Shown: positions 6,153 through 24,834 of the stretch, piece by piece
Numbering within the stretch: the first letter of the stretch is position 1
How the letters are laid out: the number at the start of each line of letters is the position of its first letter
Assembly: GCF_900156165.1 (NCBI RefSeq)
Contig: NZ_FTMY01000008.1
Span: forward strand, 124,001-188,000
From: Pseudacidovorax sp. RU35E
Lineage (GTDB): Bacteria; Pseudomonadota; Gammaproteobacteria; Burkholderiales; Burkholderiaceae_C
Length of the DNA stretch: 64,000 bases
Direction of reading: 5' to 3'
The notes under the pieces: generated by a model
The model's input: the letters and a program-made list of their open reading frames with translations, nothing else
Databases searched by the model: none
Told to the model about the DNA's origin: nothing
Made by a program: the position numbers and the translations under genes

Positions 6153-6162
6153 GGCCGTCTGC

Positions 6163-6927
6163 TCAGGCTGGATTGTCGATGTCGATGAACTCATGCACCA
6201 GACCGAGTTGCCCGGCGACATGGGCGGCGACGGCGGGAGCTCCGTACCGCTCCGTGGCATGGTGGCCACAGGCCAGGAAGGCCACGCCCGACTCTCTCGC
6301 GTAATGGGCCTGGGGCTCGGAGATCTCGCCGGTGATGAAGGCATCGGCACCCGCTGCGATGGCGGCTTCGAAGAAGCCCTGTGCGCCCCCGGTACACCAG
6401 GCGATGCGCTTCAGGGGACGGCCGTCACCGGGAATGGCCGTGACGCGCCGGCCCAGCCGCGCTTCAACGTGGCGGGCAAGCGGCTCTACGCTCCCGAATT
6501 GCAGGCCCTCGCCGGGACCACCAAGCCAGCCCAACTCCTGCTCACCAAATCGCTGCGGCTGCACCACCAGGCCCAGTTGCCAGCCCAGCTGCGCGTTGTT
6601 GCCCAGTTCCGCATGGGCATCCAACGGCAGGTGGTAGGCGAACAGATTGACATCATGACCAATCAGCAGCCCGAGCCGCTGGCGCATCCAGCCGGTGACC
6701 CGCGCATCCTGGCCGCGCCAGAACAGCCCGTGGTGGACGAACAAGGCATCCGCGCCCGCAGCGACAGCCGCCTCGATGAAGGCACGGCTGGCAGTCACGC
6801 CTGAAACGATCTTTCGGACCTCGCCTCGCCCTTCCACCTGGAGGCCGTTGGGACCATAGTCTTTGAACCGTTCGGGGGACAACAGCTGGTCGAATGCCTG
6901 CAGCAGGGCGGATCGCGTAATGCTCAT
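6163..6927 (-). CDS. Nif3-like dinuclear metal centre protein
   Basis: The 254-residue product belongs to the NIF3/YbgI family, a widespread toroidal hexameric protein with a dinuclear metal site; its biochemical role is still unsettled. Metal-ligand motifs are visible: VHHGLFW, the Asp/His segment GHDVNLFAYHLPLDAH, and near the C-terminus CGHHATERYGAPAV. The start codon at 6927 overlaps the upstream transporter stop codon by 4 bases (ATGA). The pdxA-family gene follows after 10 bases. In related genomes, as I recall, this gene stands next to the HtrA/tat genes, so the flanking transporter and dehydrogenase look like later additions. Confidence 0.92.
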   Translation of the reverse strand: MSITRSALLQAFDQLLSPERFKDYGPNGLQVEGRGEVRKIVSGVTASRAFIEAAVAAGADALFVHHGLFWRGQDARVTGWMRQRLGLLIGHDVNLFAYHLPLDAHAELGNNAQLGWQLGLVVQPQRFGEQELGWLGGPGEGLQFGSVEPLARHVEARLGRRVTAIPGDGRPLKRIAWCTGGAQGFFEAAIAAGADAFITGEISEPQAHYARESGVAFLACGHHATERYGAPAVAAHVAGQLGLVHEFIDIDNPA

Positions 6928-8249
6928 GCGCGCATTGTCGCGGGGCGCATGGCATGCCCGCGCGCCGCCAGGGGCAGCCAGGCCAGTACGAAGCCCAGCA
7001 CCGCAAGGGCGCCAACATAGTGGGCCGGGGCCATCGAGTCGCGCTGCAGCCAGAGCGTGAGGATCACAGGCGTCAGCCCGCCGAAGATGGCATAGGCCAT
7101 GTTGTAGGCAAACGACAGGCCCGAGAAGCGCACGGGCGCCGGAAAGGCCCGCACCCCGGCGATCGGCACGGTAGCGATCGTCCCCACGAACAGGCCGACC
7201 AGGCCGTAGTGCCAGAACAGCGATGCCGTGGTGCCCGGCAGGCCCGTGTAGAACAGATAGGACGTGATGAACAGGCCTGCCCACCCGACCAGCATGGTCG
7301 GGCGCGTGCCGAAGCGATCACAGGCCCAGCCGACGGCCACGCAACCCAGGGTCAAAGTCAATGTTGCCAGCGCATTCGCCTCCAGCGCGACGGCAGCGGG
7401 AATGTGGTGCACCTTCTGGAGGTAGGTGGGCGTGTACAGCACCACCACCACGATGGCAGCGGACAGCACCCAGGTCAGCAGCGCCACAAAGAAGACCGGG
7501 CCTCGGTGATCACGCACGATGGTCTTGAGCGGCAGCTCGGCGGCCACGTTACGCCGCTGGGCCAGCTCCTGGAACACCGGCGTCTCGTGCAGAAAGCGGC
7601 GCAGATACACCGAGACCAGGCCGAACACACCCCCCAGGATGAAAGGAATGCGCCAAGCGAAGTCGCTGACCTCGGCGGGCGCATAGTGGGTGTTGATGGC
7701 GACAGCCACCAGCGAACCAAGAAGGATGCCGCCGGTGATGCCGGCCGTGAGTGTGCCCACACCCAGCCCGTAGCGCTGCGCCGGGACATGCTCGCCGATG
7801 AACACCCAGGCGCCCGGCATCTCTCCGCCGATGGCCGCGCCCTGCAGTACACGCATGAGCAGCAGCAGCAGCGGCGCCGCCACGCCGATGGCGGCGTAGG
7901 TGGGCAGCAGGCCGATCACGAGGGTGGGCACGGCCATCAGAAAGATCGACAGCGAGAACATGCGCTTACGGCCCAGCAGGTCACCGAAATGGGCGATGAC
8001 GATGCCGCCGACCGGACGGGCCAGATAACCGGCCGCAAAGATGCCGAAAGTCTGCAGCTGGCGCAGCCAGTCGGGCATCTCCGTCGGGAAGAACAGCGCC
8101 CCGATGACCGTGGCGAAAAAAACGTAGATCACGAAGTCGTAGAACTCGAGCGTGCCACCCAGGGCGGACAGGGCGAGCGTCTTGTAGTCACGCGCGTTGA
8201 GCGTGCGCGGACCGGCCTGCTGGCCGGCGGAAGGTGAAGCTGAGGACAT
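6924..8249 (-). CDS. MFS transporter, metabolite:H+ symporter (MHS) type
   Basis: This 441-residue inner-membrane protein has about 12 hydrophobic segments and the MHS-family signature of ProP, KgtP and citrate/shikimate carriers. It shows LEFYDFVIYVFFA in TM1, ARPVGGIVIAHFGDLLGRKRMF at the loop 2-3 motif, and RVLQGAAIGGEMPGAWVF. The family imports small organic acids, betaines or sugar acids with protons; the substrate cannot be read from sequence. The start at 8249 is where the family N-terminus begins, with no strong ribosome-binding site. The preceding 70 in-frame codons are Arg-rich and look non-coding. Translationally coupled to the nif3-like gene. Confidence 0.9.
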   Translation of the reverse strand: MSSASPSAGQQAGPRTLNARDYKTLALSALGGTLEFYDFVIYVFFATVIGALFFPTEMPDWLRQLQTFGIFAAGYLARPVGGIVIAHFGDLLGRKRMFSLSIFLMAVPTLVIGLLPTYAAIGVAAPLLLLLMRVLQGAAIGGEMPGAWVFIGEHVPAQRYGLGVGTLTAGITGGILLGSLVAVAINTHYAPAEVSDFAWRIPFILGGVFGLVSVYLRRFLHETPVFQELAQRRNVAAELPLKTIVRDHRGPVFFVALLTWVLSAAIVVVVLYTPTYLQKVHHIPAAVALEANALATLTLTLGCVAVGWACDRFGTRPTMLVGWAGLFITSYLFYTGLPGTTASLFWHYGLVGLFVGTIATVPIAGVRAFPAPVRFSGLSFAYNMAYAIFGGLTPVILTLWLQRDSMAPAHYVGALAVLGFVLAWLPLAARGHAMRPATMRA

Positions 8250-8551
8250 GGAAAGGCAATACAGCGGAGACGGCCGCCGGCCGGCGCGACAGACGCAGCG
8301 CGCGAAAGAAGGAGACAGCGGGGGCTTCGAAAGGCGTGAGCCGCAGGCGACCGGGTGAGCCGCGCAAGGCGCCTTCGTGGGTGGCCGGATAGGCCGAACG
8401 CGCGATTTTAGGGTTTCCCCTCTGTTTGCGAGGCCCACGGGGTCTTGTCCGACGTGGCGCACCAGTCCCGGCTACATCGCTTCGGAGACAATTCCGCCCC
8501 TGCGGAACCCTTCCGCCTTTCTTCCGTCACCGCATCCTTTCTCTCTTTTCC
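8250..8551. other. Divergent intergenic region, no gene seen
   Basis: About 300 bases separate the minus-strand MHS transporter from the plus-strand HtrA-like protease. No open frame, RNA gene or clear operator repeat is visible. A TAAAAT hexamer on the minus strand (8404-8409) could be a -10 box for the transporter, but no good -35 accompanies it. Both promoters are expected here. Confidence 0.5.
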
Positions 8552-9709
8552 ATGAAGCGCATCTGGCTGCTCTTTGCCCAGGCCGTGACCGTTCTGCTCG
8601 CCGGCTATTTCGTCGTTGCCACCCTCAAGCCCGAATGGGTGCGGCGAGGCAGCACCTCTCTGGGCGGGGTGGTTTCGATCATCGAGGCGCCTGCGTCAGC
8701 ACCCGCCGCACCGGCGCCCGGAAGCTTTGCCGCTGCGGCGCAGAAGGCGGCGCCTGCAGTGGTCAGCATCAACACCAGCAAGGCGGCACCCCGGCATCCG
8801 CGCTCCAACGACCCCTGGTTTCGCTTCTTCTTCGGGGATCAGGACAACGAGCAGCCGCAGGTGGGCCTCGGCAGCGGCGTGATCGTGAGTGCGGACGGCT
8901 ACATCTTGACCAACAACCATGTGGTCGAGGGCGCCGACGAGATCGAGGTGACGCTCAACGACGGCCGTCACGCAAGTGGCCGCCTGATCGGCACCGACCC
9001 CGATACCGACCTGGCAGTCATCCGCATCAGCCTGGAGAAGCTGCCGGTGATCGTGCTCGGCAACTCTGACGCATTGCTCGTGGGCGACCAGGTGCTGGCC
9101 ATCGGCAATCCATTTGGCGTCGGACAGACCGTGACCAGCGGCATCGTCTCCGCCCTGGGCCGCAACCAGCTGGGCATCAACACCTTCGAGAACTTCATTC
9201 AGACCGACGCCGCCATCAACCCCGGCAATTCCGGCGGCGCGCTGATCGACACCGAAGGAAACCTGCAGGGCATCAACACAGCAATCTATTCGCGCTCGGG
9301 CGGCAGCATGGGCATCGGCTTCGCCATCCCCGTCTCGACCGCCAAGCAGGTTCTCGAAGGCATCGTGAAGGACGGCCGCGTCACGCGCGGCTGGATCGGC
9401 GTGGAACCCGCCACGCTCACCCCGGAGATGGCCGACACCTTCGGCGTCAAGGCGACGGCCGGCGTGATCATCACCGGCGTCCTGCAGAACGCACCCGCAG
9501 CCCAGGCGGGCATCCGGCCGGGCGATGTCATCACCGGGGTGGGGGACAAGTCCATCGGCAACGTGCAGGAACTGCTGACTGCCGTTGCGGGACTCAAACC
9601 TGGCAGCGCCAGCCGCTTCCAGGTGCAGCGTGGCAACGACAGGATCGAACTCGACGTCACGGCTGGCACGCGGCCGGCCACGCCCGCTCGCCGCCGCCAG
9701 GCCGAGTAG
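8552..9709 (+). CDS. HtrA/DegS-like periplasmic serine protease
   Basis: This 385-residue protein is an S1C-family protease with one PDZ domain. An N-terminal hydrophobic anchor (residues 4-23) holds it at the inner membrane facing the periplasm. The trypsin-like domain (about 60-265) has the catalytic triad H123 (NNHVVEG), D153 (DTDLAVI) and S227 (NPGNSGGAL). The PDZ domain covers about 280-370, and a short basic tail follows. One PDZ plus an anchor is the DegS arrangement rather than DegP. Whether it cleaves an anti-sigma factor, as DegS does, or degrades misfolded proteins is unknown. It converges with tatC; 146 bases separate their stops, with no clear terminator. Confidence 0.9.
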   Translation: MKRIWLLFAQAVTVLLAGYFVVATLKPEWVRRGSTSLGGVVSIIEAPASAPAAPAPGSFAAAAQKAAPAVVSINTSKAAPRHPRSNDPWFRFFFGDQDNEQPQVGLGSGVIVSADGYILTNNHVVEGADEIEVTLNDGRHASGRLIGTDPDTDLAVIRISLEKLPVIVLGNSDALLVGDQVLAIGNPFGVGQTVTSGIVSALGRNQLGINTFENFIQTDAAINPGNSGGALIDTEGNLQGINTAIYSRSGGSMGIGFAIPVSTAKQVLEGIVKDGRVTRGWIGVEPATLTPEMADTFGVKATAGVIITGVLQNAPAAQAGIRPGDVITGVGDKSIGNVQELLTAVAGLKPGSASRFQVQRGNDRIELDVTAGTRPATPARRRQAE

Positions 9710-12380: not shown

Positions 12381-12788
12381 TCAATCGCCTGCCGCGTCGC
12401 GGGCCTCAGCCTTGCGCAGGGCCTTCTCCTCGATGCCGCTCATTCCTTCGCGGCGCGCGAGTTCAACCGCCACATCACCGGGGGAAAGCCCGTAATGCGC
12501 AAGGGCGACCATGCAGTGGAACCACAGGTCAGCAACTTCGTTCACTATTTTTTCGCGCGCGCCACCGTGGTCGGCATCCTTGCACGCCATGACCACTTCG
12601 GTCGCCTCCTCTCCGATCTTCTTGAGGAAGCCATCCGGCCCCTTCTGGAGAAGCCGGGCCACATAGCTGCGGGTGGGGTCTCCACCCTCGGCAGGTCGTC
12701 GGCTCTCTATCACGGCCGCGAGACGGGCGAAGGTGTCGGAAGTGGAGGCGATCTCAGTCACAGCAAAGGAATGGGAGGGGGTCGTCAC
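12381..12788 (-). CDS. hisE: HisE, phosphoribosyl-ATP pyrophosphatase
   Basis: HisE removes pyrophosphate from phosphoribosyl-ATP, step 2 of histidine synthesis. The 135-residue product has the family motifs [27 protein letters not shown] and [14 protein letters not shown], with metal-binding Glu and Asp residues. I chose a GTG start at 12788 because GTGA overlaps the hisI stop by 4 bases, indicating translational coupling. The frame upstream has no family similarity. HisE is a separate protein here, not fused to HisI. Confidence 0.93.
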
Positions 12789-13177
12789 TTGTAGATGGAA
12801 GATGGATCCTTGAGCACGGGGTCGACCGCTACCCAGCGCCCATCGGCATAGGTCTGAAAGAAGCAGCTGTGGCGGCCGGTGTGACACGCGATGCCGGGAT
12901 CGTGGCCCTGCTGCGTGACGACCAGAAGAATCACATCATTGTCACAGTCAAGACGGACCTCATGGACCAGCTGCACATGACCTGATTCCTCGCCCTTGAA
13001 CCAGAGTTTTCCGCGGGAGCGGCTGAAATACACCGCGCACCCCGTCTCGATCGTCTTTGCCAGCGCGTCCCGGTTCATCCAGGCGAACATCAACACGTCG
13101 TTGCTGCCTCGCTCCTGCGCGATCACCGGAACGAGCCCGGCGGCGTCCCATCTCACTTCGTCCAACCAAGTTGTCAT
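12785..13177 (-). CDS. hisI: HisI, phosphoribosyl-AMP cyclohydrolase
   Basis: HisI opens the purine ring of phosphoribosyl-AMP, step 3 of histidine synthesis, and uses zinc and magnesium. The 130-residue protein shows [35 protein letters not shown], and the metal-ligand region [13 protein letters not shown] with C-H-T-G-R-H-S-C. The start at 13177 ([11 protein letters not shown]) fits the family better than an in-frame ATG nine codons earlier. It is the first gene of the hisI-hisE-hinT-tatABC run. Its usual upstream neighbour, hisF, is now 8.4 kb away. Confidence 0.95.
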
Positions 13178-13303
13178 TGGCGGATTGTTACTCAGCCGGC
13201 GCACGAGAAAAATGTTGCGTTATTGTGGGCCGCCATTAAACTCAACGCCAATTGGTCTCGCGCCGGGTGTTCTGGCTGGGCCGCAGGTTTCAAGGGGAAC
13301 TTC

Positions 13304-13585
13304 ATGAACTTTGCTCGTCTCGTCTCTTCGGTCGCCGCGGCGGCTCTCGTTTCTGCCCCGCTGATGGCGGGTGCCCAGACCGCTCCTGCGGCCACTGCTG
13401 GCGGCGGCGCTGGTGGCACGGCCGCTACGACCGCTGGCATCGCTGGCGTGAGCGCAGGCGTCGTGGCAGCAGGTGTGCTGGGTATCGTGGTGGTCGGCGC
13501 CGCTGTCAGCGGCGGCGGCGGTGGCAACGACGGCAACGTGCTGTTGCCCGGCACCGGAACCACTGGCACGACCGGCACTCGGTGA
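13304..13585 (+). CDS. gfcA: GfcA/YjbE-like small secreted protein
   Basis: This 93-residue protein has a Sec signal peptide (residues 1-25, ending LMAGAQ). It then has an Ala/Gly/Thr-rich region, a hydrophobic Gly-Val segment (VAAGVLGIVVVGAAVSGGGGG), an N-D pair, and the tail GTGTTGTTGTR. Overall it resembles E. coli GfcA (YmcD) and YjbE as I remember them: both are small exported proteins with a hydrophobic glycine stretch and a Thr-rich tail. Composition is biased, so similarity is weak evidence alone; its place ahead of gfcB-like and gfcC/D-like genes supports the call. The start at 13304 has AAGGGGAA 5 bases upstream. Its role in capsule or exopolysaccharide secretion is unknown. Confidence 0.7.
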   Translation: MNFARLVSSVAAAALVSAPLMAGAQTAPAATAGGGAGGTAATTAGIAGVSAGVVAAGVLGIVVVGAAVSGGGGGNDGNVLLPGTGTTGTTGTR

Positions 13586-13595
13586 GTTTGCGCAT

Positions 13596-13628
13596 CCTCC
13601 CCGGCGGGGGGGTGCGAAGCGACGCTTC
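13596..13628. repeat. Two GC-rich hairpins between gfcA and gfcB
   Basis: The 56 bases between the gfcA stop and the gfcB start contain a C-rich/G-rich stem (13596-13602 with 13606-13612, one wobble) and a second stem, GAAGCG-A-CGCTTC (13616-13628). Neither has a following T-run, so they could be a transcript-stabilising or attenuating element rather than a terminator. Confidence 0.45.
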
Positions 13629-13641
13629 AAAGCGGCCTTTG

Positions 13642-14355
13642 ATGTTGAATCTCAGGTCGCTTTGTTGCGTCATGACGACGCTCTTTCTTGCCGCATGCAG
13701 CACAGGAACAGGGAGCGGAGCCACCTACGACACGACCCGCTACCTCTTTGAGCGTGTTGCCGGCCGCACCACTGAGTCCGCGCGGGTGTTCAACCCTGCG
13801 TATAACTACCTCCGCGTGACGTACGAAAACGCGGAAGCCTACATGGTGCTCGGCTATGTGGACTCGATTCAGGGGGGGCCTGTAGAGGTCTGGTACAGCG
13901 GCAAGCGTGAGGTGATTCGCCTGGGCAATGGCCGCATCCTCGGAACCTCCGGCCTCCCCTCGGACTGGCGCGAAGTCCGGATTCAAGATGCACCCTCATG
14001 GGACGCCTTGCTCCGTAGCGGCGAAGTGACCCAGTACCGTCGATTGCGCGATGTGATGCCCGGGTACCATTTCGGCATTGAGGAACAGGTCAAGGTCGTT
14101 CGACTGTCCTCCTACAACCCCTTGGCGCTGAAGGGTCGGTCCCCGGACAGCCTTGCATGGTTCGAGGAACGGGATGTCGCTCGCACCGCGGGAGTTGCCG
14201 CCTTGCCCCCCGCCAGATTCGGCGTCGCCCGTGACGCGAATGGCCTCGCGTCTGTTGTTTATTCTGAACAGTGTCTGAGCCCCGACGTGTGCTACACCTT
14301 CGAACGCTGGAAGGCGCCTACTGCGACCGCACCGTCCACGGCGGCCGGCTCATGA
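13642..14355 (+). CDS. gfcB: GfcB/YjbF-family outer-membrane lipoprotein
   Basis: The 237-residue protein starts with a lipoprotein signal, lipobox FLAAC with C19 as the acylated residue. A YjbF/GfcB-type domain follows. Family-like segments include YAYMVLGYVD, EVWYSGKREVIRLGNGRILGTSGL, WREVRI and the late VYSEQCLSPDVCYTFERW. In E. coli, gfcB belongs to the group 4 capsule operon and yjbF to an exopolysaccharide operon. The start at 13642 gives a proper signal sequence, although no ribosome-binding site is clear. Its ATGA stop overlaps the next gene by 4 bases, so the two are translationally coupled. Confidence 0.85.
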   Translation: MLNLRSLCCVMTTLFLAACSTGTGSGATYDTTRYLFERVAGRTTESARVFNPAYNYLRVTYENAEAYMVLGYVDSIQGGPVEVWYSGKREVIRLGNGRILGTSGLPSDWREVRIQDAPSWDALLRSGEVTQYRRLRDVMPGYHFGIEEQVKVVRLSSYNPLALKGRSPDSLAWFEERDVARTAGVAALPPARFGVARDANGLASVVYSEQCLSPDVCYTFERWKAPTATAPSTAAGS

Positions 14356-17300
14356 ATCTTCACTCCTGCGCCTTCCGTCTCCGCCCCCTCACCTCTCGCC
14401 TTGCTGCCATGCTTGCCCTGGGATGGGTGGGATACGCAGTGGCGCAACCTTTGACTGACCCTTCAGGCGACGCATCGCCTGCGCCCGTCGAGGGCGAACG
14501 GCTCAGCCAGTGGCTGCTTCAGCGTTCCACGGCACCGGCTGATCCTGGCCTTGCCTGGCTGGTGCCGCAGGAAAAACTGCCTCAGCAGTATCTTCGCAAT
14601 GTATTGCTGATCCATCTGGAGCGTTCTGCAGCCCAACGCTCTGGCGCTGATCGGGCAATTCGCGTGCGCCTGCTGTCGTGGCTGCACGGTCTACCCGCGA
14701 CCGGACGCGTTGCCCTTGGCAACGTCGATCCGCGATGGCTGGAGGTGAACCCTGGCCAGGATCCGATCGCCGGCGACAGGACGCGGTTCGTTCTGCCTGG
14801 TGCTGCCGCCAGGGACGTCGTTGTGGTGCAACCGGATGGCAGCTTGTGCCACGTCCCCCATGAAGGCGGGCGCTGGATCGGTGACTACCTTCGAGCCTGC
14901 GGCGCACTGGAAGGCGTGGATTGGGCCTGGATCGCGCAGCCGGACGGCCGGACTGCACGGACGGGCGTGGCGCTCTGGAACCGCACGGAGGGGGTGGAGC
15001 CCGTGCCTGGCGCCTGGATCTGGGCGCCCCCGCGTGCCATGGACGACCTGGTGGCCGCGTCGGAAGGTCTGATCCGCTTCCTGGCCACGCAAGGAGCGGC
15101 ACCACCCGCGCCCCCCGACCTGGCTGCGACAGCAGCGGGAATTCGCGAGCCTCGACCCGACCGGCTCCCCCTGTTCGCCACCAACGGCATGCTGCCTCTC
15201 GTCGCAGCAAAGCCGCCTCGTCCGCTGGACATCAGTGCCAACGATTGGGGCGAAATCGGGCTTCTGCAGACGCCCACGGCACGCATGAGCCCGGCCGGCG
15301 AAATACGCGCGTCCTACAGCTCGGTGTGGCCCTACAGCCGCGTGAACGTCATGTTCCAACCCTTCGAATGGATGGAGGCTGGCTTTCGTTACACCAGCAT
15401 CTCCAACCGCGACTATGGTCCGCAGTTCACGAACCAGAGCTTCAAAGACAAGAGCATCGACGTCAAGTTCAAGCTGCTGCGCGAATCCACCTACTGGCCC
15501 GAGTTGGCGCTCGGCTTCCGCGACATTGGTGGCACCGGCCTGTTTTCGAGCGAGTACTTCGTGGCCAACAAGCGGTTTGGCGACTTCGACCTGAGTCTTG
15601 GCATCGGCTGGGGTTACATGGGCGCCAGTGGCAACATCAGCAATCCCTTCCGGCTGCTGGGAAGCCGCTTTGCCACGCGCCCCACATCGGACAGCACGGG
15701 CAACGCCAACTTCAGTAGCTACTTCCGTGGCCCTGCGGCGCTGTTCGGCGGCATCCAATGGAGAACGCCCTGGGATCCTCTGACGCTGAAGATCGAATTC
15801 GACGGCAACAATTACCAGAACGAGCCGCTCGCCAATCCCCTGCCCCGACGCTCGCCCATCAACGTGGGACTGGCTTACCGGCTCACCCCGGGTGTCACTT
15901 TGTCCGCCGGCGTGGAGCGCGGTGAAAAATTCATGGTGGGCTTCACGGTGGGCGGCAATCTGTCCACTGCCCAGATGCCGAAGCTGTTGGATCCCCCGCA
16001 GCCCAACTTCATCCCCGACGCCCCATCGACGCCGCCCGGGTGGCGCGACACCGCCGCCCAGATCGAAATGCAGACCGGCTGGCGCGTGCTGCGCATCGCT
16101 CCCAAAGACGATGTGCTTCATCTGTGGGTGACCGGCGCCAACACGGTCTACCGGACGACACGGACCGAACGCGCGGTCGCCGTGCTGCATGCGACGGCGC
16201 CTGCCGAAATTCGCTCATTCGTGATCCATTACGAGGAACATGGCCTGCCGCTGCATGCGCAGGCCTTCGTTCGCGACGAGTGGGTGCGCGCCAGAGCCCA
16301 GCCCTTGCCGCCCCACTTGGCTCGTGACGTGACGCGCAGCGACTATGCGCCCAATGATGTGGCGGAGGCCGACCTGCCGCCCGTGACGGCCGCGCCACCG
16401 GGCACAGTGACCGCCACTTCCGCGCCTGCAGCCGCTCCCGCCAGTGCGGACGAGGCGCGCGCCCCTTGGCGACGCCAGCCCGACACATTCGATTTCGGTT
16501 TTTCGCCGAACTTCAATCAGATCATCGGCGGTCCGAACAATTTCGCGCTGGTCGAACTCGGCATGAAGGCGAACGCCCAGTACAACATCAGCCGGCAGAC
16601 GTGGCTGCAGGGGCAGGTCAATCTGCGGCTGGCCGACAATTACGGCAGCTTCACCTATGACGCGCCCAGCGGCCTGCCACGAGTTCGGACGGATCAGCGC
16701 CTCTATCTCACGACCAGTCGGGTCACGATTCCCAACCTGCAGCTCACCCACGTCGGCCAGCTCACGGAGAACCAGTTCTACAGTGTGTACGGCGGCTACC
16801 TCGAGCCGATGTTCGCGGGCGTGGGCGCCGAATGGCTGTACCGCCCGTGGGGCAGCAGCGTGGCGTTCGGCATCGACGTCAACCATGTGCGCCAGCGCGA
16901 GTATTCGCAGCATTTCGCACTGCGCGATTACCAAGTGAACACCGGCCACGCGTCGCTGTACTGGAACACCGGCTGGAACGGCGTGCTGGTGCGCGTCAGT
17001 GCCGGGCAGTATCTGGCAGGGGACCGCGGAGTGTCGGTCGACGTTGCGCGACGCTTCGACAACGGCCTCACCGTGGGCGCCTATGCCACCAAGACCAACG
17101 TATCGTCGGCACAGTTCGGCGAGGGCAGTTTCGACAAGGGCATCTACCTGTCCATCCCGCTCGACGCGCTGCTTCCACGGTCCAGCCGCTCGCTGATCGG
17201 CTTCAACTGGTCTCCACTGACGCGGGACGGTGGTGCCCGACTGGGCCGCGCCGTGTCGCTCTACGACATGACCTACATCCGCGATCCCGAGGCCTTCCGC

Positions 17301-17369
17301 TTCGGGCCTCCGCCGGATGGCAAGCCCCGGGCGGGTGACAACATTCTGGACTTCGACGCCAAACGATGA
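14352..17369 (+). CDS. Fused GfcC-like / YjbH (GfcD)-like polysaccharide export protein
   Basis: This 1005-residue protein joins two functions that E. coli encodes separately. Residues 1-31 form a signal peptide (cleavage after AVA). Residues about 33-260 look like GfcC/YjbG, the periplasmic capsule protein: GRWIGDYLRACGALEG, DWAWIAQPDG, ALWNRTEG and EPVPGAWIWAPP. From about residue 300 the sequence is YjbH/GfcD-like: EIGLLQTPTARMSPAGEIR, YSRVNVMFQPFEWMEAGFRYT, then long alternating beta-strand patterns to the C-terminus, as expected for an outer-membrane beta-barrel. A Pro/Ala-rich linker separates the halves. The start at 14352 overlaps gfcB by 4 bases. It probably acts with GfcB and GfcE in moving polymer across the outer membrane. 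Confidence 0.85.
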   Translation: MNLHSCAFRLRPLTSRLAAMLALGWVGYAVAQPLTDPSGDASPAPVEGERLSQWLLQRSTAPADPGLAWLVPQEKLPQQYLRNVLLIHLERSAAQRSGADRAIRVRLLSWLHGLPATGRVALGNVDPRWLEVNPGQDPIAGDRTRFVLPGAAARDVVVVQPDGSLCHVPHEGGRWIGDYLRACGALEGVDWAWIAQPDGRTARTGVALWNRTEGVEPVPGAWIWAPPRAMDDLVAASEGLIRFLATQGAAPPAPPDLAATAAGIREPRPDRLPLFATNGMLPLVAAKPPRPLDISANDWGEIGLLQTPTARMSPAGEIRASYSSVWPYSRVNVMFQPFEWMEAGFRYTSISNRDYGPQFTNQSFKDKSIDVKFKLLRESTYWPELALGFRDIGGTGLFSSEYFVANKRFGDFDLSLGIGWGYMGASGNISNPFRLLGSRFATRPTSDSTGNANFSSYFRGPAALFGGIQWRTPWDPLTLKIEFDGNNYQNEPLANPLPRRSPINVGLAYRLTPGVTLSAGVERGEKFMVGFTVGGNLSTAQMPKLLDPPQPNFIPDAPSTPPGWRDTAAQIEMQTGWRVLRIAPKDDVLHLWVTGANTVYRTTRTERAVAVLHATAPAEIRSFVIHYEEHGLPLHAQAFVRDEWVRARAQPLPPHLARDVTRSDYAPNDVAEADLPPVTAAPPGTVTATSAPAAAPASADEARAPWRRQPDTFDFGFSPNFNQIIGGPNNFALVELGMKANAQYNISRQTWLQGQVNLRLADNYGSFTYDAPSGLPRVRTDQRLYLTTSRVTIPNLQLTHVGQLTENQFYSVYGGYLEPMFAGVGAEWLYRPWGSSVAFGIDVNHVRQREYSQHFALRDYQVNTGHASLYWNTGWNGVLVRVSAGQYLAGDRGVSVDVARRFDNGLTVGAYATKTNVSSAQFGEGSFDKGIYLSIPLDALLPRSSRSLIGFNWSPLTRDGGARLGRAVSLYDMTYIRDPEAFRFGPPPDGKPRAGDNILDFDAKR

Positions 17370-17481
17370 GCGCCGTCCGCCCAGTTAGCATCCAGGGTTT
17401 GTCCCGGCACGTATCCGCTTCTGCAGCATGGCACCGAAAGGCCTCGCTGCAGTCGAACGGCCCTTTTCTCCCTGCCCCTGA

Positions 17482-17916
17482 ATGAAGTCCATCCTCGTCA
17501 TCTGCGTCGGGAATATTTGTCGCAGTCCCATGGCCGAGGCCTTGCTTGCCCGTGAACTGCCGGCCGTGCAGGTACGGTCCGCCGGCACCGGCGCTCTCAT
17601 CGGCCATGCGGCCGATCCCATAGCGCAGACCCTCATGGCCGAGCGCGGCATCGACATCGCCGCGCACCGCGCCCGGCAGGTGACCCGGGCGATGTGCCAG
17701 GAGGTCGACCTCGTGCTCGCCATGGACGACGCCCAGAAGCGTTTCATCGAACAGAGCTACCCCTTCACGCGAGGCCGGATCTACCGCATCGGCGAAGCCG
17801 CCAAGGTGAACGTGCCCGACCCCTACAAGGAAGGCCGCGATGCGTTCGAGAACGCTTTGCAGCTCATCGACGCCGGTGTCCAGGTCTGGGCAGAGCGGAT
17901 CCGCAAACTTTCATAA
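17482..17916 (+). CDS. etp: Low-molecular-weight protein-tyrosine phosphatase (Etp/Wzb type)
   Basis: This 144-residue cytoplasmic phosphatase removes phosphate from the tyrosine kinase encoded next, the cycle needed for capsule export. The P-loop is C8-V-G-N-I-C-R14-S (CX5R). The general acid is D113 in NVPDPYKEG, and SAGTGALIGHAADP is a typical family segment. It lies 112 bases after the GfcC-YjbH fusion gene and 26 bases before the kinase gene. The same gene pair closes the E. coli gfcABCDE-etp-etk operon. Also known as wzb. Confidence 0.93.
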   Translation: MKSILVICVGNICRSPMAEALLARELPAVQVRSAGTGALIGHAADPIAQTLMAERGIDIAAHRARQVTRAMCQEVDLVLAMDDAQKRFIEQSYPFTRGRIYRIGEAAKVNVPDPYKEGRDAFENALQLIDAGVQVWAERIRKLS

Positions 17917-17942
17917 AGTCTTCAGCCCCAGCGGCCAGCCCC

Positions 17943-20174
17943 ATGCAAACTTCCCCCGCCCACGTTCCGCCGCCAGAGAAAGACGATGACGAGATACATC
18001 TGGCCGAGTATTTCGACATCCTGGTGGACAACCGCTGGCTCGTGGTCACCATCACAGCCCTGGCACTGCTCATCGGCGCCGCCTATGCGCTGCTCGCCAC
18101 GCCCATCTACCAGTCGAATCTGCTGATCCAGGTCGAGGATGCAGCGCCGGATGCCAAGGGCTTCCTGGGCGACGCATCCAGCCTCTTCGAGGTCAAGACG
18201 CCTGCCACTGGCGAAATCCAGGTGCTGCGCTCTCGCCTGGTGATCGGCGGTGCGGTCGATGCCACGCGCTTCTACATCGATGCGCGGCCCGACTACGTGC
18301 CCGTGGTGGGCGAATGGCTGTCGCGCCGGGCGAAGTCACTGTCCACGCCCATGTCGCTCCCCGGGCTGGGTGGCCGGGTCTACGGCACAGAAAAGATCGA
18401 CGTCAGCCGTTTCATTGTTCCCCCTGAACTGGAGGACCAAAAGCCTTTCACCATCACCGCACAGGGCGGGGGCCGTTTTCAGGTCGAGCATCCCGACCTC
18501 GATCAGCCCATCAACGGCCGCGTGGGTGAACAGCTCGAACAGAAGACGCCCTTTGGCGAACTCGAACTCAAGATCGACACGCTCGACGGTGAGGCCGGTG
18601 CCAAGTTCGTCGTGCACCGCTACTCGCGCCTGCGCACGATCGAAGAGCTGCAGCGCCGCCTGCAGGCTGGCGAGCAGGGCCGCCAGTCGAACGTGATCAG
18701 CGTGGCGCTGGAAGACAGCAACCGCACGCGACTCACCTCAATCCTGAACGCCATCGCCGCCACCTACGTCGACCAGAACCGCGAGCGCAAGGCAGCCGAA
18801 GCCGAGCGCACGCTGGGCTTCCTGGACCAGCAGCTGCCCGAGTTCAAGCGCCAGCTCGAGCGATCGGAGGACGCCTACACGCGCTTCCGCAACCAGAACT
18901 CGACCGTGGCGTTCGACGAAGAGGCCAAGGCCACGCTCACGCAGATCGTCGAACTGCAAGGCAAGCTGCTCGAAGCGCAGCAGAAACGCCGCGAGCTGGC
19001 TGCGCTCTACACCGGGAATCACCCGCGCATCCAGACGATCGACCAGCAGATCGGCCTGATCCAGAAGGACATCAACGCCCTCAATAGCCGCGTGGGCCGT
19101 ATGCCCACCATCCAGCAGGACACCTTCCGCTTCGAGCGGGACGTACGAGTTGGCAGCCAGCTCTACCAGTCGCTGCTCAACAACTCGCTGCAACTGCGGC
19201 TGGTCAAGGAAGGCAAGACCGGAAACGTCCGACTGCTCGACTCCGCCGCTTCGCCTCGCTTGCCGGTCAAGCCCCAAAAGGGCTTGATCGTGGCGCTCGC
19301 TGGCGTCCTCGGGCTGCTTGCCGGCATTGCCCTGGCTTTCGTGCGCAGCATGTTCTTCAGCGGTATCCGCAATCCCCAGGAGATCGAGAACCACACCGGC
19401 ATGAGTGTGATGTCGGTCATTCCATACACGCTCGAGCAGGGCGTGCTGGAAGCGCGGATGGCGGCAGGCCAGAAGGGTGTGCACGTCCTCACCACCACCA
19501 ACCCGGAGAGCACCGCCGTCGAAAGCGTGCGCAGCCTGCGCATCGCGCTGCAGTTCGCGCTGCTGGAGGCTGGCAACAACCGCGTGCTGATCACCGGTCC
19601 AACGCCTGGCATCGGCAAGAGCTTCGTGTCTGCGAACTTCGCGGCCGTCATGGCGGCCGCAGGCAAGCGGGTGCTGCTGCTCGATGCCGACATGCGCAAG
19701 GGCTACATCAACAAGCAGTTCGGCCTCAAGCGGGAAGGCGGCCTGTCCGAACTGCTGCTGGGCGACCTGACGCTCGAGCAGGCGACACACACCCAGGTGG
19801 TGCCGAATCTGGACGTGATGACGACCGGCCGCTATCCGCCCAATCCTTCGGACATGCTGATGTCCGACACCTTCGCACGGCTGTTGGACACCTTGTCGGC
19901 CCAATACGATCTCGTGGTGATGGACGCCCCACCGGTGCTGGTGGCCGCAGACGCGGCTGCAGCCGGAGCGCATGCTGCCGTGGTGCTGATGGTGGCCCGT
20001 GCCGATCAGACACAGATGGGCGAGCTGGTGGAGAGCAACAAGCGCCTGCGTCAAGCCAATGTCGCGCCAGCGGGCGTCGTGTTCAACGCCATGGACATGA
20101 CCCGTCGCCACTACGGCAGCCAGGGCTACCGCTACGGCGGCTATCGCTACACCGAATACAAGTACAAGTCCTGA
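17943..20174 (+). CDS. etk: Polysaccharide co-polymerase and tyrosine autokinase (Etk/Wzc type)
   Basis: The 743-residue inner-membrane protein is a bacterial tyrosine kinase of the Wzc/Etk class that controls polymer length and export. Order: Wzz-like start with TM1 (about 32-52), a large periplasmic region with coiled coil (about 280-385), TM2 (about 448-468), then the kinase. The kinase has Walker A GPTPGIGKS (552-560), Walker A' VLLLDAD (577-583) and Walker B LVVMDAP (657-663). The last 20 residues carry seven tyrosines (positions 724-741), the autophosphorylation cluster. All key motifs are present. A strong terminator follows 60 bases downstream. Confidence 0.95.
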   Translation: MQTSPAHVPPPEKDDDEIHLAEYFDILVDNRWLVVTITALALLIGAAYALLATPIYQSNLLIQVEDAAPDAKGFLGDASSLFEVKTPATGEIQVLRSRLVIGGAVDATRFYIDARPDYVPVVGEWLSRRAKSLSTPMSLPGLGGRVYGTEKIDVSRFIVPPELEDQKPFTITAQGGGRFQVEHPDLDQPINGRVGEQLEQKTPFGELELKIDTLDGEAGAKFVVHRYSRLRTIEELQRRLQAGEQGRQSNVISVALEDSNRTRLTSILNAIAATYVDQNRERKAAEAERTLGFLDQQLPEFKRQLERSEDAYTRFRNQNSTVAFDEEAKATLTQIVELQGKLLEAQQKRRELAALYTGNHPRIQTIDQQIGLIQKDINALNSRVGRMPTIQQDTFRFERDVRVGSQLYQSLLNNSLQLRLVKEGKTGNVRLLDSAASPRLPVKPQKGLIVALAGVLGLLAGIALAFVRSMFFSGIRNPQEIENHTGMSVMSVIPYTLEQGVLEARMAAGQKGVHVLTTTNPESTAVESVRSLRIALQFALLEAGNNRVLITGPTPGIGKSFVSANFAAVMAAAGKRVLLLDADMRKGYINKQFGLKREGGLSELLLGDLTLEQATHTQVVPNLDVMTTGRYPPNPSDMLMSDTFARLLDTLSAQYDLVVMDAPPVLVAADAAAAGAHAAVVLMVARADQTQMGELVESNKRLRQANVAPAGVVFNAMDMTRRHYGSQGYRYGGYRYTEYKYKS

Positions 20175-20234
20175 AGATCACCTTGCCGCCTCGTGCGGCA
20201 AGGCCGCCACGGCGCTTCTGGCGCCAGCAGAAAC

Positions 20235-20264
20235 GACAAGGGCCGCCTGAGGGCGGCCCTTGTC
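20235..20264. terminator. Bidirectional intrinsic terminator between etk and gfcE
   Basis: A perfect 13-bp stem, GACAAGGGCCGCC (20235-20247) with GGCGGCCCTTGTC (20252-20264), has a TGAG loop. It lies between the convergent etk and gfcE stop codons and is very stable. The T-run is short on both sides, yet the location and stability make a shared terminator likely. Confidence 0.75.
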
Positions 20265-20304
20265 ATTGGCGAAAGAGAAGCGGCTCGGCGCCGCCTCCGC
20301 CGAC

Positions 20305-21465
20305 TTACCAACCGCGAGCGCGGTCGATGGTTTCGCTGCCCGTGTTGACGGCGGCCGCAGACGGCAGGATGAGGCTGATCACGCGGTTCCAGCGCACGAG
20401 CGGCACCGGATCGATATAGATCACGTCCTGAGGTCGCATCGGAAACTGGCTGGCGAGCGCAAAGGCAGCGGGGTTCTTGGCGTCCAGCTGGAAGATCGCC
20501 GGCGAGCCGGTCGCACCCTTGCGGATCACGTAGATCTGGGACGGGTTGGACGTGTCGAGGGTCGGTCCGCCTGCCTCGCCCAGCGCTTCGTTGAGCGTCA
20601 GGCGGCCTGAGCCGCGCAAGGCAAGCGCCGTCGGCCGCAGCACCTCGCCCATGATGTAGACCTTCGTGTCCTCGCGCGTACCGACGGTGATCGTGTCGTT
20701 CGCTCGCAGGGGGATGTCGTTGAGGTCGTAGCCAGCCTCGCGAAGCGCCGGCAGGTCGACGCGCACCGAGCGCCCACCGCGCGTCAGCACGATCGAGGAC
20801 CGGTCGCCCGCATCGGTGATGCCGCCTGCACGGTTGATGGCTTCCGCCATGGTCATCGGCAGGTCGGTGAAGATCTGCGAACCGGGTGTTCGCACCTGGC
20901 CTTCAACGTAGGCGCGGCGGCTGCGGAAGGACTGGATGCGGACGGTGACCTGCGGACTCTGGATGTTGCGGGCCAGACGGCGGGCGATCAGGTCGCCGGC
21001 TTCCGACTCGGTCATGCCCTCGATCTTGACGCGCCCCACATAGGGAAAAGAGATTTCGCCATTGGCGCCGACGATGAAGCCCGGCGCCACGCTCACACCC
21101 GTCGGATCGACCGACTGCGTGATCACGGCGCCCGCATTGGGCAGCAGTTCCGGGTGGTCGTACACGATGACGCCGATCACATCGCCCGGCCCGATCGTGT
21201 AGGGATCCGGCTTGCCGAACAGGGCGCGGACGTCAGAGGGCACGCCGGTGGGCGTGAGCTGCTGCAGTGTGCGCACCAGCGCCGTCGTGATCGGGGTGAT
21301 GCGACCTTCCGGCGCTTCATCGGGCACGTACTGGAACTTCGGCGGCAGCTCGCTCTGGTCCGAGTAAGGACCCACCGATCCCGGCCCTGGGATCACCGTG
21401 CAACCCTGGAGAGCTGCGGCAGCCGCCAACACCGTCCAGGCCGGCACATTCGCTGGAAATTTCAA
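20305..21465 (-). CDS. gfcE: Outer-membrane polysaccharide exporter lipoprotein (GfcE/Wza)
   Basis: This 386-residue lipoprotein belongs to the Wza/GfcE polysaccharide export family, which forms the octameric outer-membrane channel. The lipobox is L19-Q-G-C22. The Poly_export domain (DPYTIGPGDVIGVIVYDHPEL) and SLBB repeats (for example EGQVRTPGSQIFTDLPMTMAEAI and MGEVLRPTALALRGSGRLTLNEAL) follow. The C-terminal PLVRWNRVISLILPS would form the membrane-spanning helix ring. No ATG fits; a TTG at 21465 with AGGG 8 bases upstream gives an exact lipoprotein signal. Unlike its partners the gene is on the minus strand, 134 bases after hisF, so his-operon read-through may transcribe it. Confidence 0.92.
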   Translation of the reverse strand: MKFPANVPAWTVLAAAAALQGCTVIPGPGSVGPYSDQSELPPKFQYVPDEAPEGRITPITTALVRTLQQLTPTGVPSDVRALFGKPDPYTIGPGDVIGVIVYDHPELLPNAGAVITQSVDPTGVSVAPGFIVGANGEISFPYVGRVKIEGMTESEAGDLIARRLARNIQSPQVTVRIQSFRSRRAYVEGQVRTPGSQIFTDLPMTMAEAINRAGGITDAGDRSSIVLTRGGRSVRVDLPALREAGYDLNDIPLRANDTITVGTREDTKVYIMGEVLRPTALALRGSGRLTLNEALGEAGGPTLDTSNPSQIYVIRKGATGSPAIFQLDAKNPAAFALASQFPMRPQDVIYIDPVPLVRWNRVISLILPSAAAVNTGSETIDRARGW

Positions 21466-21473
21466 GTCAACTA

Positions 21474-21477
21474 CCCT
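21474..21477 (-). promoter_or_regulatory. Ribosome-binding site deciding the gfcE TTG start
   Basis: AGGG on the minus strand lies 8 bases before the TTG at 21465. The next possible start, GTG at 21447, has no such site and would shorten the signal peptide. Confidence 0.6.
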
Positions 21478-21599
21478 AAATGGATCAATGGAGGCGGCCT
21501 TCGACAGGCCGCAAAGACCGCACACGCGCCAGCGTGCGGCAGGGCGCAAGGCTGGCGACCGATGATATTCGGCTTTGAAACGGCAACGACGCCAAAATG

Positions 21600-22379
21600 T
21601 CAACGACGCACAACGATGCCCCGCCCGGCCATATGCGCCTTGGCCTCGTCAACCGTGTGCTGGCCGTAATGGAAGATGCTGGCGGCGAGCACTGCGTCGG
21701 CACCACCCTGCTGTACGCCGTCGGCGAGATCCGCCAGCGAGCCGACGCCGCCGGAAGCAATCACCGGCACGCTGACCGCATCGCTCACGGCGCGGGTGAG
21801 TGCGAGGTCGAAGCCGCTCTTGGTGCCGTCGCGGTCCATGCTGGTCAGAAGGATTTCGCCCGCGCCACGACGTGCCATCTCGGTGGCCCACTGCACCGCG
21901 TCCAGGCCGGTGTTCTTGCGCCCGCCGTGGCTGTAGACGTCCCAGCCATCGCCGCGCTTCGCCGCTTCTTCGGGCGTCCGCCGCTTGGCGTCGATGGCCA
22001 CCACGATGCACTGGGCGCCGTATTTGGTCGAGGCATCCTCGATCACCTGGGGATTGGCGATGGCGGCGGAATTGAAGCTGGTCTTGTCGGCACCGGCATT
22101 GAGCAGCCGGCGCACGTCTTCCACCGTGCGCACGCCGCCGCCCACCGTCAGCGGAATGAAGACCTGCGAAGCCACGGCTTCGATGATCGGCAGGATCAGG
22201 TCGCGGCCGTCGCTGGTGGCCGTGATGTCCAGGAAGGTCAGCTCGTCGGCGCCCTGCGCGTTGTAGCGCGCGGCGATTTCCACCGGATCGCCCGCGTCGC
22301 GCAGTTCCAGGAAATTGACGCCCTTGACCACCCGGCCCCCGGTGACGTCCAGGCAGGGAATGATGCGTTTGGCGAGCAT
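21600..22379 (-). CDS. hisF: HisF, cyclase subunit of imidazole glycerol phosphate synthase
   Basis: HisF joins with the glutaminase HisH to convert PRFAR to imidazole glycerol phosphate and AICAR. The 259-residue (beta-alpha)8 barrel shows catalytic D11 ([10 protein letters not shown]), the second catalytic Asp in [10 protein letters not shown], and phosphate-binding loops LTVGGGVRT and IASGGVGSL. The start at 22379 is where the family begins, 7 bases after the mutarotase gene. It normally precedes hisI; here gfcE follows instead. Two modest hairpins (21494-21512 and 21518-21539) after the stop lack T-runs. Confidence 0.97.
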
Positions 22380-22386
22380 GGCGGGA

Positions 22387-23247
22387 TCAGGAAATCGAAG
22401 AGGAGGAGGAAGGCCGGGCGTCGAGTTGCTGCCACAGCCGCACTTCGGTGCCGGGCGCGAGTTCGACGGGCGTGTCGATGGCCGCAGCCTCGACGCAGAG
22501 CATGTGGCGCCAACCATCGGCCGGCATGTCCGCCAGGCGCGCGCACAGTTCCGGGCCGGGATTCCACACCACTGTTTCGGGACAGGAGGACGATGAAGAA
22601 ATCTGCAGATCGCCGGTCGGCGTGTGGAGCACCAGGGGATGGACAGGCGCCGCATAGACGCTGTCGAATTCGTCGCCGAAGCGCAGTGCTTCGCGGGATT
22701 CGGTCGAATGCTCGTCTCGCACGGCGTCCCACCGGGCGGCGCCCTGCAGCCCTCGGAGATGCACGTCCGCCAGGTCGTCCACCTGCAGGTAGCTGTGGAG
22801 CGCCACCGTGAAGGACCAGGGCGTCGTACCGGTGTTGTGCACCTGCAGCTCGATGCGCAGGACGTTGGCCTCGGGCACATGCACGCTCAGGCGCAGCGCG
22901 AAGCGCTGCGGCCACGCGGCCCGGGTTTGGTCGCTGTCCGTGAGGCCAACGACGACGGTGTCGGGGGCCGCGTCGGGGAGCACCTGCCAGGGCAGGTTGC
23001 GCGCGAAGCCATGCTTGACCAGTGGACCGCGTTGATTGAATTGCGGAAAACAGACCGGTACGCCGCCGCGGATGGCGGCATGGCTATCGAACACCGCCCT
23101 GGGACTCAGATAGAGCCGCTCCGTGCCGTCCGCGCTGCGCCACGACAGCACATGGCCGCCATGCAGCGCCACGGTCACCTGGTCTCCCGTGGCCGCCAAC
23201 AGCTCGATGGCCGGCTGGCCGTGAACGGTGATCTCGCGCAGGCTCAT
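22387..23247 (-). CDS. D-hexose-6-phosphate mutarotase (YeaD-like aldose epimerase)
   Basis: The 286-residue protein belongs to the aldose 1-epimerase superfamily, YeaD branch, which interconverts alpha and beta anomers of hexose 6-phosphates. Typical segments are [46 protein letters not shown] and [18 protein letters not shown]. These include the conserved His and Asp/Glu region of the active site. It lies between hisA and hisF, 51 and 7 bases away, so it must share their transcript. No histidine-pathway reaction needs it; it may act on another phosphosugar or be placed here by chance. Confidence 0.88.
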
Positions 23248-23298
23248 CCGACGATCCTGAGGCGGGCTGCCGTGACGGAGGTGGAAAGCGCCGTAGCC

Positions 23299-24045
23299 TT
23301 AGGCCGCATTGGCCAGCTCGTCGGCGCGTGCCTGCGCCCGCGCGAAATCCAGATCGCCAGAGTAGATCGCGCGACCGCAGATCACGCCTTCGACGCCCTC
23401 GCCTTCGACCGCGCACAGCTGCTCGATGTCGGCCATGTTGGACAGACCGCCCGACGCGATCACCGGAATGGTCAGCGCCTGCGCCAGTCGCACTGTCGCG
23501 TCGATGTTGATGCCCGAAAGCATGCCGTCGCGGCCGATGTCGGTGTAGATGATGGACTCGACGCCGTAGTCTTCGAACTTCTTGCCCAGGTCCACCACCT
23601 CGTGGCCGGTGAGCTTGCTCCAGCCGTCGGTGGCCACCTTGCCGTCCTTGGCGTCCAGGCCCACGATGATGTGGCCGCCGAAGGCCACGCAGGCGTCCTT
23701 GAGAAAGCCGGGGTTCTTCACCGCCGCCGTGCCGATGATCACGTAGCGCAGGCCGTCGTCGATGTAGCGCTCGATGGTGTCCAGGTCGCGGATGCCGCCG
23801 CCCAGCTGCACCGGGATGTCATCACCGACCTCGCGCAGGATCGCCTTGATGGCCGCATGGTTCTGCGGCTTGCCGGCGAAGGCGCCGTTCAGGTCGACCA
23901 GGTGCAGGCGGCGGGCGCCGGCCTCCACCCATTTGCGCGCCATGGCCGCGGGGTCTTCGCTGAAGACGGTCGATTGGTCCATGTCGCCCTGCTTGAGCCG
24001 AACGCAATGGCCGTCCTTGAGATCGATGGCGGGAATGAGGAGCAT
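23299..24045 (-). CDS. hisA: HisA, ProFAR isomerase
   Basis: HisA performs the Amadori rearrangement of ProFAR to PRFAR, step 4 of histidine synthesis. The 248-residue barrel has the catalytic Asp residues in [11 protein letters not shown] (D8) and [13 protein letters not shown], plus the phosphate loops VQLGGGIRD and VIASGGLSN. It begins 132 bases after hisH, the largest gap in the his cluster, in which I see no gene or hairpin. Confidence 0.97.
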
Positions 24046-24177
24046 GATGAGGCGCTGAGGAGTGCCGGGAACAAACGAGAAGAGAGGCGGAAGCGATCGG
24101 CTTCGATCCGGCCGCCGGGGACTGCGATGCAGAGCACGCAGTCGCGCACCGCAACCGGGGCAGTGGGCTTGGCCGTC

Positions 24178-24834
24178 TCAGGGAGTCCAGTGGAGGAAGT
24201 TCCGGTAGAGCTGCAGACCGTGGTCGGCGCTCTTCTCCGGGTGAAATTGGGTCGCAAAAATGTTATCGCGGGCCACCGCAGCGGTAAAGCGGCCCCCATA
24301 GTCCGCCTCGCCCACACTGTGCGCCGCATCCTGCGGCCGGGCGTAGAAGCTGTGGACGAAATAGAACCATTCGTTGTCGGGAATGCCTTGCCACATCGCA
24401 TGCGGCCGCGCCTGCTGCACTTGGTTCCAGCCCATCTGCGGCACCTTGAAATGGCTGCCGTCGGGCTGAAGGCGGCCGGCCAGCTGGAAGCGCAGCACCT
24501 CGCCGGGAATCAGGTCCAGGCCGTTGCTGGGCCCTTCCTCGCTGCGCCCCAGCAGCATCTGCATGCCGACGCACACGCCGAACAGCGGTTTGCTGGCCGC
24601 GGCTTCGAGCACCGAGGCCAGCAGGCCCGACTCGCGCAGCTCGCGCATGCAGTCGGGCATGGCACCCTGGCCGGGCAGCACCACACGGGTGGCGGCACGC
24701 ACGACATCGGGGTCGGCCGTCACGTGCACCTCCACGCCCGCGGCATCGGCCGCATGACGCACGGCCTGCGACACGGACCACAGGTTGCCCATGCCGTAGT
24801 CCACCACGGCGACGCTGTTCTTCATCGGAGTCAT
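24178..24834 (-). CDS. hisH: HisH, glutamine amidotransferase subunit of IGP synthase
   Basis: HisH hydrolyses glutamine and channels ammonia to HisF. The 218-residue class I amidotransferase has nucleophile C88 in [10 protein letters not shown] and the H198/E200 pair in TQFHPEKS. The oxyanion region LPGQGAM is also present. A second ATG three codons later (24825) is an equally possible start. hisB ends 43 bases upstream. Confidence 0.96.

Follow-up and report, generated by a model that had tools for sequence, protein, structure and literature searches.

Export locus in Pseudacidovorax sp. RU35E

The window, a 64,000-nucleotide stretch of one contig of Pseudacidovorax sp. RU35E, holds a gfcABCDE-etp-etk gene set in which gfcA-like, gfcB, fused gfcCD, wzb-like, and wzc-like genes follow one another in this order and a wza-like gene lies on the opposite strand. 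The first open reading frame (ORF; 13304..13585, +) encodes 93 aa with a signal-peptide-like start and an Ala/Gly-rich composition, ends in TGTTGTTGTR, and had no Pfam match; we take it to be gfcA/yjbE-like, presuming so from its place and its composition. Small ORFs that match it in phmmer searches sit upstream of gfcB in relatives (e.g., L121 and L120). The next gene (13642..14355, +; predicted start) encodes a gfcB/yjbF-like lipoprotein with a lipobox-like LFLAAC, which matched PF11102 at 39.1 bits and had no NCBIfam match at 1e-5. Its stop codon and the start codon of the fused gene overlap in ATGA. GfcB matches were found in 75 of the 80 named loci described below, the locus sequence of the other 5 starting less than 400 bases upstream, and 62 of these 75 relatives have an in-frame, putative start codon at the same -4 place.

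Downstream of the fused gene (14352..17369, +) are genes for a Wzb/Etp-like low-molecular-weight protein tyrosine phosphatase (17482..17916, +; Pfam LMWPc, 121.6 bits), whose best NCBIfam model was Wzb at 125.4 bits, under the cut-off of 243, and for a Wzc/Etk-like polysaccharide co-polymerase and tyrosine kinase (17943..20174, +; predicted start) with WZC_N, Wzz, and GNVR matches and a TIGR01005 score of 532 bits, above its cut-off. The gene for the Wza/GfcE-like OPX export protein (20305..21603, -; start uncertain), with Poly_export, SLBB, and Wza_C matches, is convergent with the operon and is the sole Poly_export match in the genome. The genome has a single PF02397 sugar transferase, encoded on another contig.

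The export locus interrupts a his cluster between hisI and hisF (window positions 12381-24834). Matches to HisI and HisF flank the fused gene in 5 of the 80 named loci (8-kb flanks), all of them from Pseudacidovorax, and the Pseudacidovorax loci are also the nearest kin by sequence. The deposited annotation of Paraburkholderia sp. 22B1P gives the fused gene as one CDS, a "YjbH domain-containing protein" with GfcC and YjbH in one frame, within a row of genes for a YjbF lipoprotein, the fused protein, an export protein, a tyrosine phosphatase, and a tyrosine autokinase; this row adjoins an undecaprenyl-phosphate glucose phosphotransferase.

Architecture of the fused protein

The fused gene encodes 1005 aa, with GfcC first and YjbH second in one reading frame, the order that characterizes an OtnG-type fusion. 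The preliminary description had proposed such a fusion and a Pfam search for both parts within one protein. That search returned PF06251 (GfcC C-terminal domain; 33.2 bits against a gathering score of 20) and PF06082 (YjbH/GfcD; 775.7 bits against 24, covering profile positions 1 to 656 of 658), and the proposal is borne out by Pfam, the single frame, the fold match, and the relatives. PF20616 (GfcC N-terminal domain) had no match in the window protein at E <= 1. Pfam was also run on 16 relatives' proteins, 14 of them YjbH proteins; among the nine fused relatives, PF06251 was above its cut-off in seven, below it in L032 (18.1), and without a match in L006, and PF20616 appeared in L034 only, at 14.6 bits, under the cut-off of 22.1. 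The GfcC part of the window protein has the fold of GfcC structure 3p42, and the match spans nearly all of 3p42. At the sequence level, phmmer of the window protein against PDB sequences returned nothing at E <= 1, and a profile from alignment A2 found 3p42 at E = 1.4e-6 and, weakly, PAP2 enzymes (best, 9htz; E = 0.0014). NCBIfam returned no family for the fused protein, and nothing among viral structures matched at E <= 0.001.

From its N terminus, the chain comprises a putative signal peptide (residues 1-31; 14352..14444, +), judged by eye from the sequence and appearing as a low-confidence helix at residues 17-30 of the predicted model; the GfcC domain (residues 36-256; 14457..15119, +); and a linker (residues 257-294; 15120..15233, +), which is the site of the gfcC stop codon and the gfcD signal peptide in split lineages. 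DSSP applied to the predicted model, rather than to a solved structure, then gave a 12-strand barrel (residues 317-536; 15300..15959, +), a middle alpha/beta domain (GfcD-M; residues 564-649; 16041..16298, +), and a 13-strand barrel (residues 713-953; 16488..17210, +), in this order. In the fold search with the model, the first barrel matched FapF. The single beta-barrel expected in the preliminary description has to be replaced by two predicted barrels flanking a middle domain. The chain ends about 30 aa past YjbH, and Pfam found no C-terminal PF01569 (PAP2) domain in it.

Distribution among relatives

All counts of GfcC, YjbH, and PAP2 by profile given here use HMMs built from alignment A2, not Pfam. 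YjbH matches occurred in 54 of 399 genomes of the order sample (51 above cut-off) and in 60 of 398 genomes of the phylum sample (59 above cut-off), and 9 of 120 genomes in the family sample matched the fused protein at E <= 0.001, two of them weakly. Separate genes for GfcC and GfcD, as in Escherichia coli, were confirmed in other lineages: no fused GfcC was found in the 48 phylum-sample loci examined outside the order (L045-L072 and L093-L112), and 27 of the 28 loci L045-L072 have a separate, same-strand gfcC upstream. In the 20 loci L093-L112, the GfcC profile found none upstream in 18 and a match within a long OPX-like ORF in 2. The 29 order loci (L016-L044) included 17 that were fused, 2 with a separate gfcC (L016 and L017), 3 that were 5'-cut, and 7 without a GfcC match (L037-L040 and L042-L044, no GfcC within the stretch searched). 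Judging from the sequences of the 20 phylum loci L093-L112 and the 7 order loci, GfcC is not needed beside every YjbH. None of the 15 scored loci among a further 19 (L073-L091, of which L091 is the gene of L043 again) was fused, and in L074 and L080 the GfcC match lay in an adjacent OPX-like gene.

In the named scan, 80 of 440 confirmed loci were kept, and GfcC and YjbH share a frame in every one of the 80 (72 ORFs complete at both ends), a proportion that cannot serve as an estimate of the frequency of fusion, since the query was built from fused proteins. Five Variovorax genomes carry two fused genes (L127/L136, L129/L135, L124/L137, L132/L144, and L142/L173). In each of the first four pairs, a wzb-like gene directly follows one copy, and the other has only a distant, opposite-strand wzc-like match. 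In V. ginsengisoli, one fused copy has PAP2 and the other is without it. Irregular YjbH genes were also seen. The YjbH match at G769:C1:62378-64352 is split across two overlapping frames near profile position 325, by a natural split or a frameshift. Two YjbH matches overlap in L105 (3118-6123, -; profile positions 283-340, Pfam) and in L202 (3478-6009, +; profile positions 261-355, A2-based profile), a pattern that would fit a duplicated middle domain between the two barrels.

Class 2 OPX proteins, too, have a GfcC domain at their end (PMC9603273). In L105, a Class 2 OPX gene (6151-8844, -) with both GfcC Pfam models above cut-off lies directly upstream of the YjbH gene. Long ORFs ending in a GfcC domain lie directly upstream of YjbH in L108 (1-2973, +) and in the alphaproteobacterial loci L202 (292-3465, +) and L204 (2-2875, +); in these three the GfcC end was seen by profile and the OPX part is putative. 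The joining of GfcC to OPX proteins in some lineages and to YjbH here suggests that GfcC is a connector.

Origin of the fusion and evolution of the linker

On a tree of 129 YjbH domains (176 usable rows reduced at 82% identity, short and 5'-cut rows excluded), a single change accounts for the fused state. All 68 fused rows fall into one clade (SH-aLRT, 100), which adjoins rows with a separate gfcC and shows no reversal; this tree and the PAP2 tree below were built quickly, with no bootstrapping. At 29 split loci, 66 to 177 nt, about the length of a signal peptide, separate the gfcC stop codon from the YjbH domain that follows. The motif F[LFI]ATQ is found near the end of 7 of the 29 split GfcC proteins and closes the GfcC domain ahead of the linker in the window protein. 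From the stop spacing and this motif, it looks as if the gfcC stop codon and the signal peptide of GfcD had been lost, and the fusion seems from these comparisons to have arisen once, in an ancestor, from an adjacent gfcC-gfcD pair. Two alphaproteobacterial plasmids (H4 and H18) were considered as possible counter-examples to a single origin, the match in H4 reaching into the GfcC part, and were rejected: in both, the GfcC domain ends a separate long upstream ORF.

In comparison with Pseudacidovorax intermedius (L121), dN was 0.139 for the GfcC part, 0.532 for the linker (residues 251-294), and 0.104 for the YjbH part; the corresponding dS values of 1.11, 1.22, and 0.79 are near saturation, and therefore only the contrast between parts is used. 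Both halves are under purifying selection, and the linker is the least conserved part of the protein, with pLDDT under 50 at residues 263-267 and 271-280 of the predicted model. The preliminary description had held that fusion fixes the geometry of the two partners, which is too strong given such a fast-changing, low-confidence linker; the fusion fixes stoichiometry and closeness but not orientation.

PAP2 extension in relatives

Many GfcC-YjbH relatives (L022, L026, L029, L145-L150, L152, and others) end, over about their last 190 aa, in a PAP2 phosphatase domain. A third barrel had been considered for this C-terminal extension of the long relatives and was discarded, as Pfam gives PAP2 and, in some, a second YjbH match. 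The PAP2 domains keep their active-site residues and mostly lack membrane-helix hydrophobicity. In an alignment of the 61 distinct domains among 69, all 61 have the R, R, and P of motif 1, the S of motif 2, and the H, S, and D of motif 3; the motif 2 His is present in 59 and the first Lys of motif 1 in 52. In 29 of 179 scored rows, the YjbH middle domain occurs a second time, after the second barrel and before PAP2 (e.g., residues 1010-1159 of L176 and 898-1047 of L193); no such repeat was seen without PAP2 in chains with a complete C terminus. A PAP2 partner gene beside the window locus was also sought and rejected, the nearest of seven PAP2 matches in the genome being about 38 kb off on the contig.

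The pairwise identities of PAP2 and YjbH are correlated (Spearman coefficient of 0.47 for 49 proteins and 0.71 for the 33 fused ones; none of 999 permutations reached either value). The PAP2 domains of the fused clade occupy two places in the PAP2 tree, and 13 changes are required to account for PAP2 on the YjbH tree. The evidence on whether PAP2 is ancestral is mixed, and we claim neither ancestry nor later gain. A comparison of PAP2 with a nearby Wzb-like gene gave 0/11 against 23/33 (Fisher P = 4.6e-5; 44 loci, 6-kb flanks), but many related Variovorax and Pseudacidovorax loci are counted there as independent, and we place no weight on this exclusion.

Proposed role of the fused protein

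In E. coli, GfcC and GfcD (group 4 capsule), like YjbG and YjbH, supply both domains with GfcB upstream, as in the window locus, and E. coli GfcD is likewise predicted to have a 12-strand and a 13-strand barrel on either side of a middle domain (PMC11494523). The E. coli proteins come from two genes, GfcD having its own signal peptide (PMC8592465), whereas the window protein is one chain with a linker. GfcB and GfcC bind each other with a KD near 100 nM, and the heterodimer binds GfcD, a monomer, at 28 uM (PMC8592465). The idea that the two parts act as a 1:1 complex at the outer membrane is consistent with these published data. We favor, with a probability of roughly 60%, the reading that the fused protein forms the outer-membrane part of an exopolysaccharide exporter of the group 4 capsule kind, with the periplasmic adaptor GfcC covalently joined to the two-barrel GfcD/YjbH. 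The GfcB lipoprotein would dock on the GfcC domain, and the tether of about 40 residues would hold GfcC close to the middle domain, where the second barrel opens to the periplasm, turning the weak GfcBC-GfcD contact into an intramolecular one. GfcC, with its Wza-like fold, may link the OPX conduit to the barrel, and the second barrel may pass polysaccharide, probably lipid-linked, to the outer leaflet via the proposed lateral gate. A lateral gate and a lipid A model have been proposed for GfcD, and a lateral exit for lipid tails is proposed for the lipopolysaccharide insertion barrel LptD as well, by analogy only (PMC11494523).

Other explanations overlap in part with this reading and with one another, such that their odds need not sum to one. 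It is improbable, though worth considering, that GfcD/YjbH is itself a polysaccharide pore independent of OPX, with GfcC as a gate or plug over its mouth. Slightly more credible, but still unlikely, is a mere bookkeeping change in which adjacent, often overlapping genes lost a stop codon and the mechanism stayed that of E. coli. The gene order and spacing in split lineages and the published 1- to 4-bp overlaps of gfcB-gfcC and gfcC-gfcD (PMC8592465) agree with such a change, as does the fast evolution of the linker, and one event followed by inheritance is also expected of a neutral change that became fixed. The absence of reversals among 68 rows and the addition of PAP2 and a repeated middle domain to the same chain in relatives speak against it, although neither is proof of a gained function.

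Cutting of the chain after export, which would yield separate GfcC and GfcD proteins as in E. coli, might be expected of a variable linker predicted at low confidence, but no conserved cleavage site stood out in this least conserved part, and we regard such processing as very unlikely. An assembly or sequencing artefact that joined two genes, or an error hiding a stop between the halves, which the preliminary description had named as a refutation, is refuted in its turn by the 80 of 80 named relatives with both parts in one frame and by purifying selection on both halves.

Relation to known systems and implications

OtnG of Burkholderia thailandensis (995 aa) was described as resembling a GfcC-GfcD fusion, with 26.8% identity to GfcC and 33.8% to GfcD, and a coupled function was inferred (Larson et al., PMC8592465); no other relevant paper on OtnG turned up in the literature collection searched. 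OtnG and the window protein are of near-equal length and are likened here through the published description. A fusion of the OtnG type was thus already known in one relative, and the window protein joins that kind; the present analysis adds a single origin, fixation throughout the clade as sampled, and a check of the fold. In Class 2 OPX proteins of the KpsD type, GfcC is likewise fused to another component of export (PMC9603273; L105). In those proteins GfcC forms the tail end of the OPX chain, whereas in the window protein it stands at the front, ahead of the barrels, and the window locus encodes its OPX as a separate protein ending in Wza_C.

Beyond the exporter reading favored above, we tentatively suggest, as a possibility we hold with some doubt, that GfcC-YjbH forms the core of an expanding outer-membrane machine that handles lipid-linked polysaccharide and includes the connector GfcC and, in many relatives, the PAP2 phosphatase. 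PAP2, with its LpxE/PgpB-like fold, would sit beside the lateral-gate barrel and trim or release the lipid carrier during handover of the polymer, and the window protein would be a form of the GfcC-YjbH exporter without the phosphatase.

Among multi-barrel proteins of the outer membrane, the GfcD/YjbH homologs have been described as the largest group (PMC11494523). With GfcC tethered 1:1 to GfcD, a complex that is weak in E. coli becomes available as one protein for structural work, and the PAP2 domains of relatives allow a direct biochemical test of lipid-linked cargo, by asking which lipid phosphate is cleaved.
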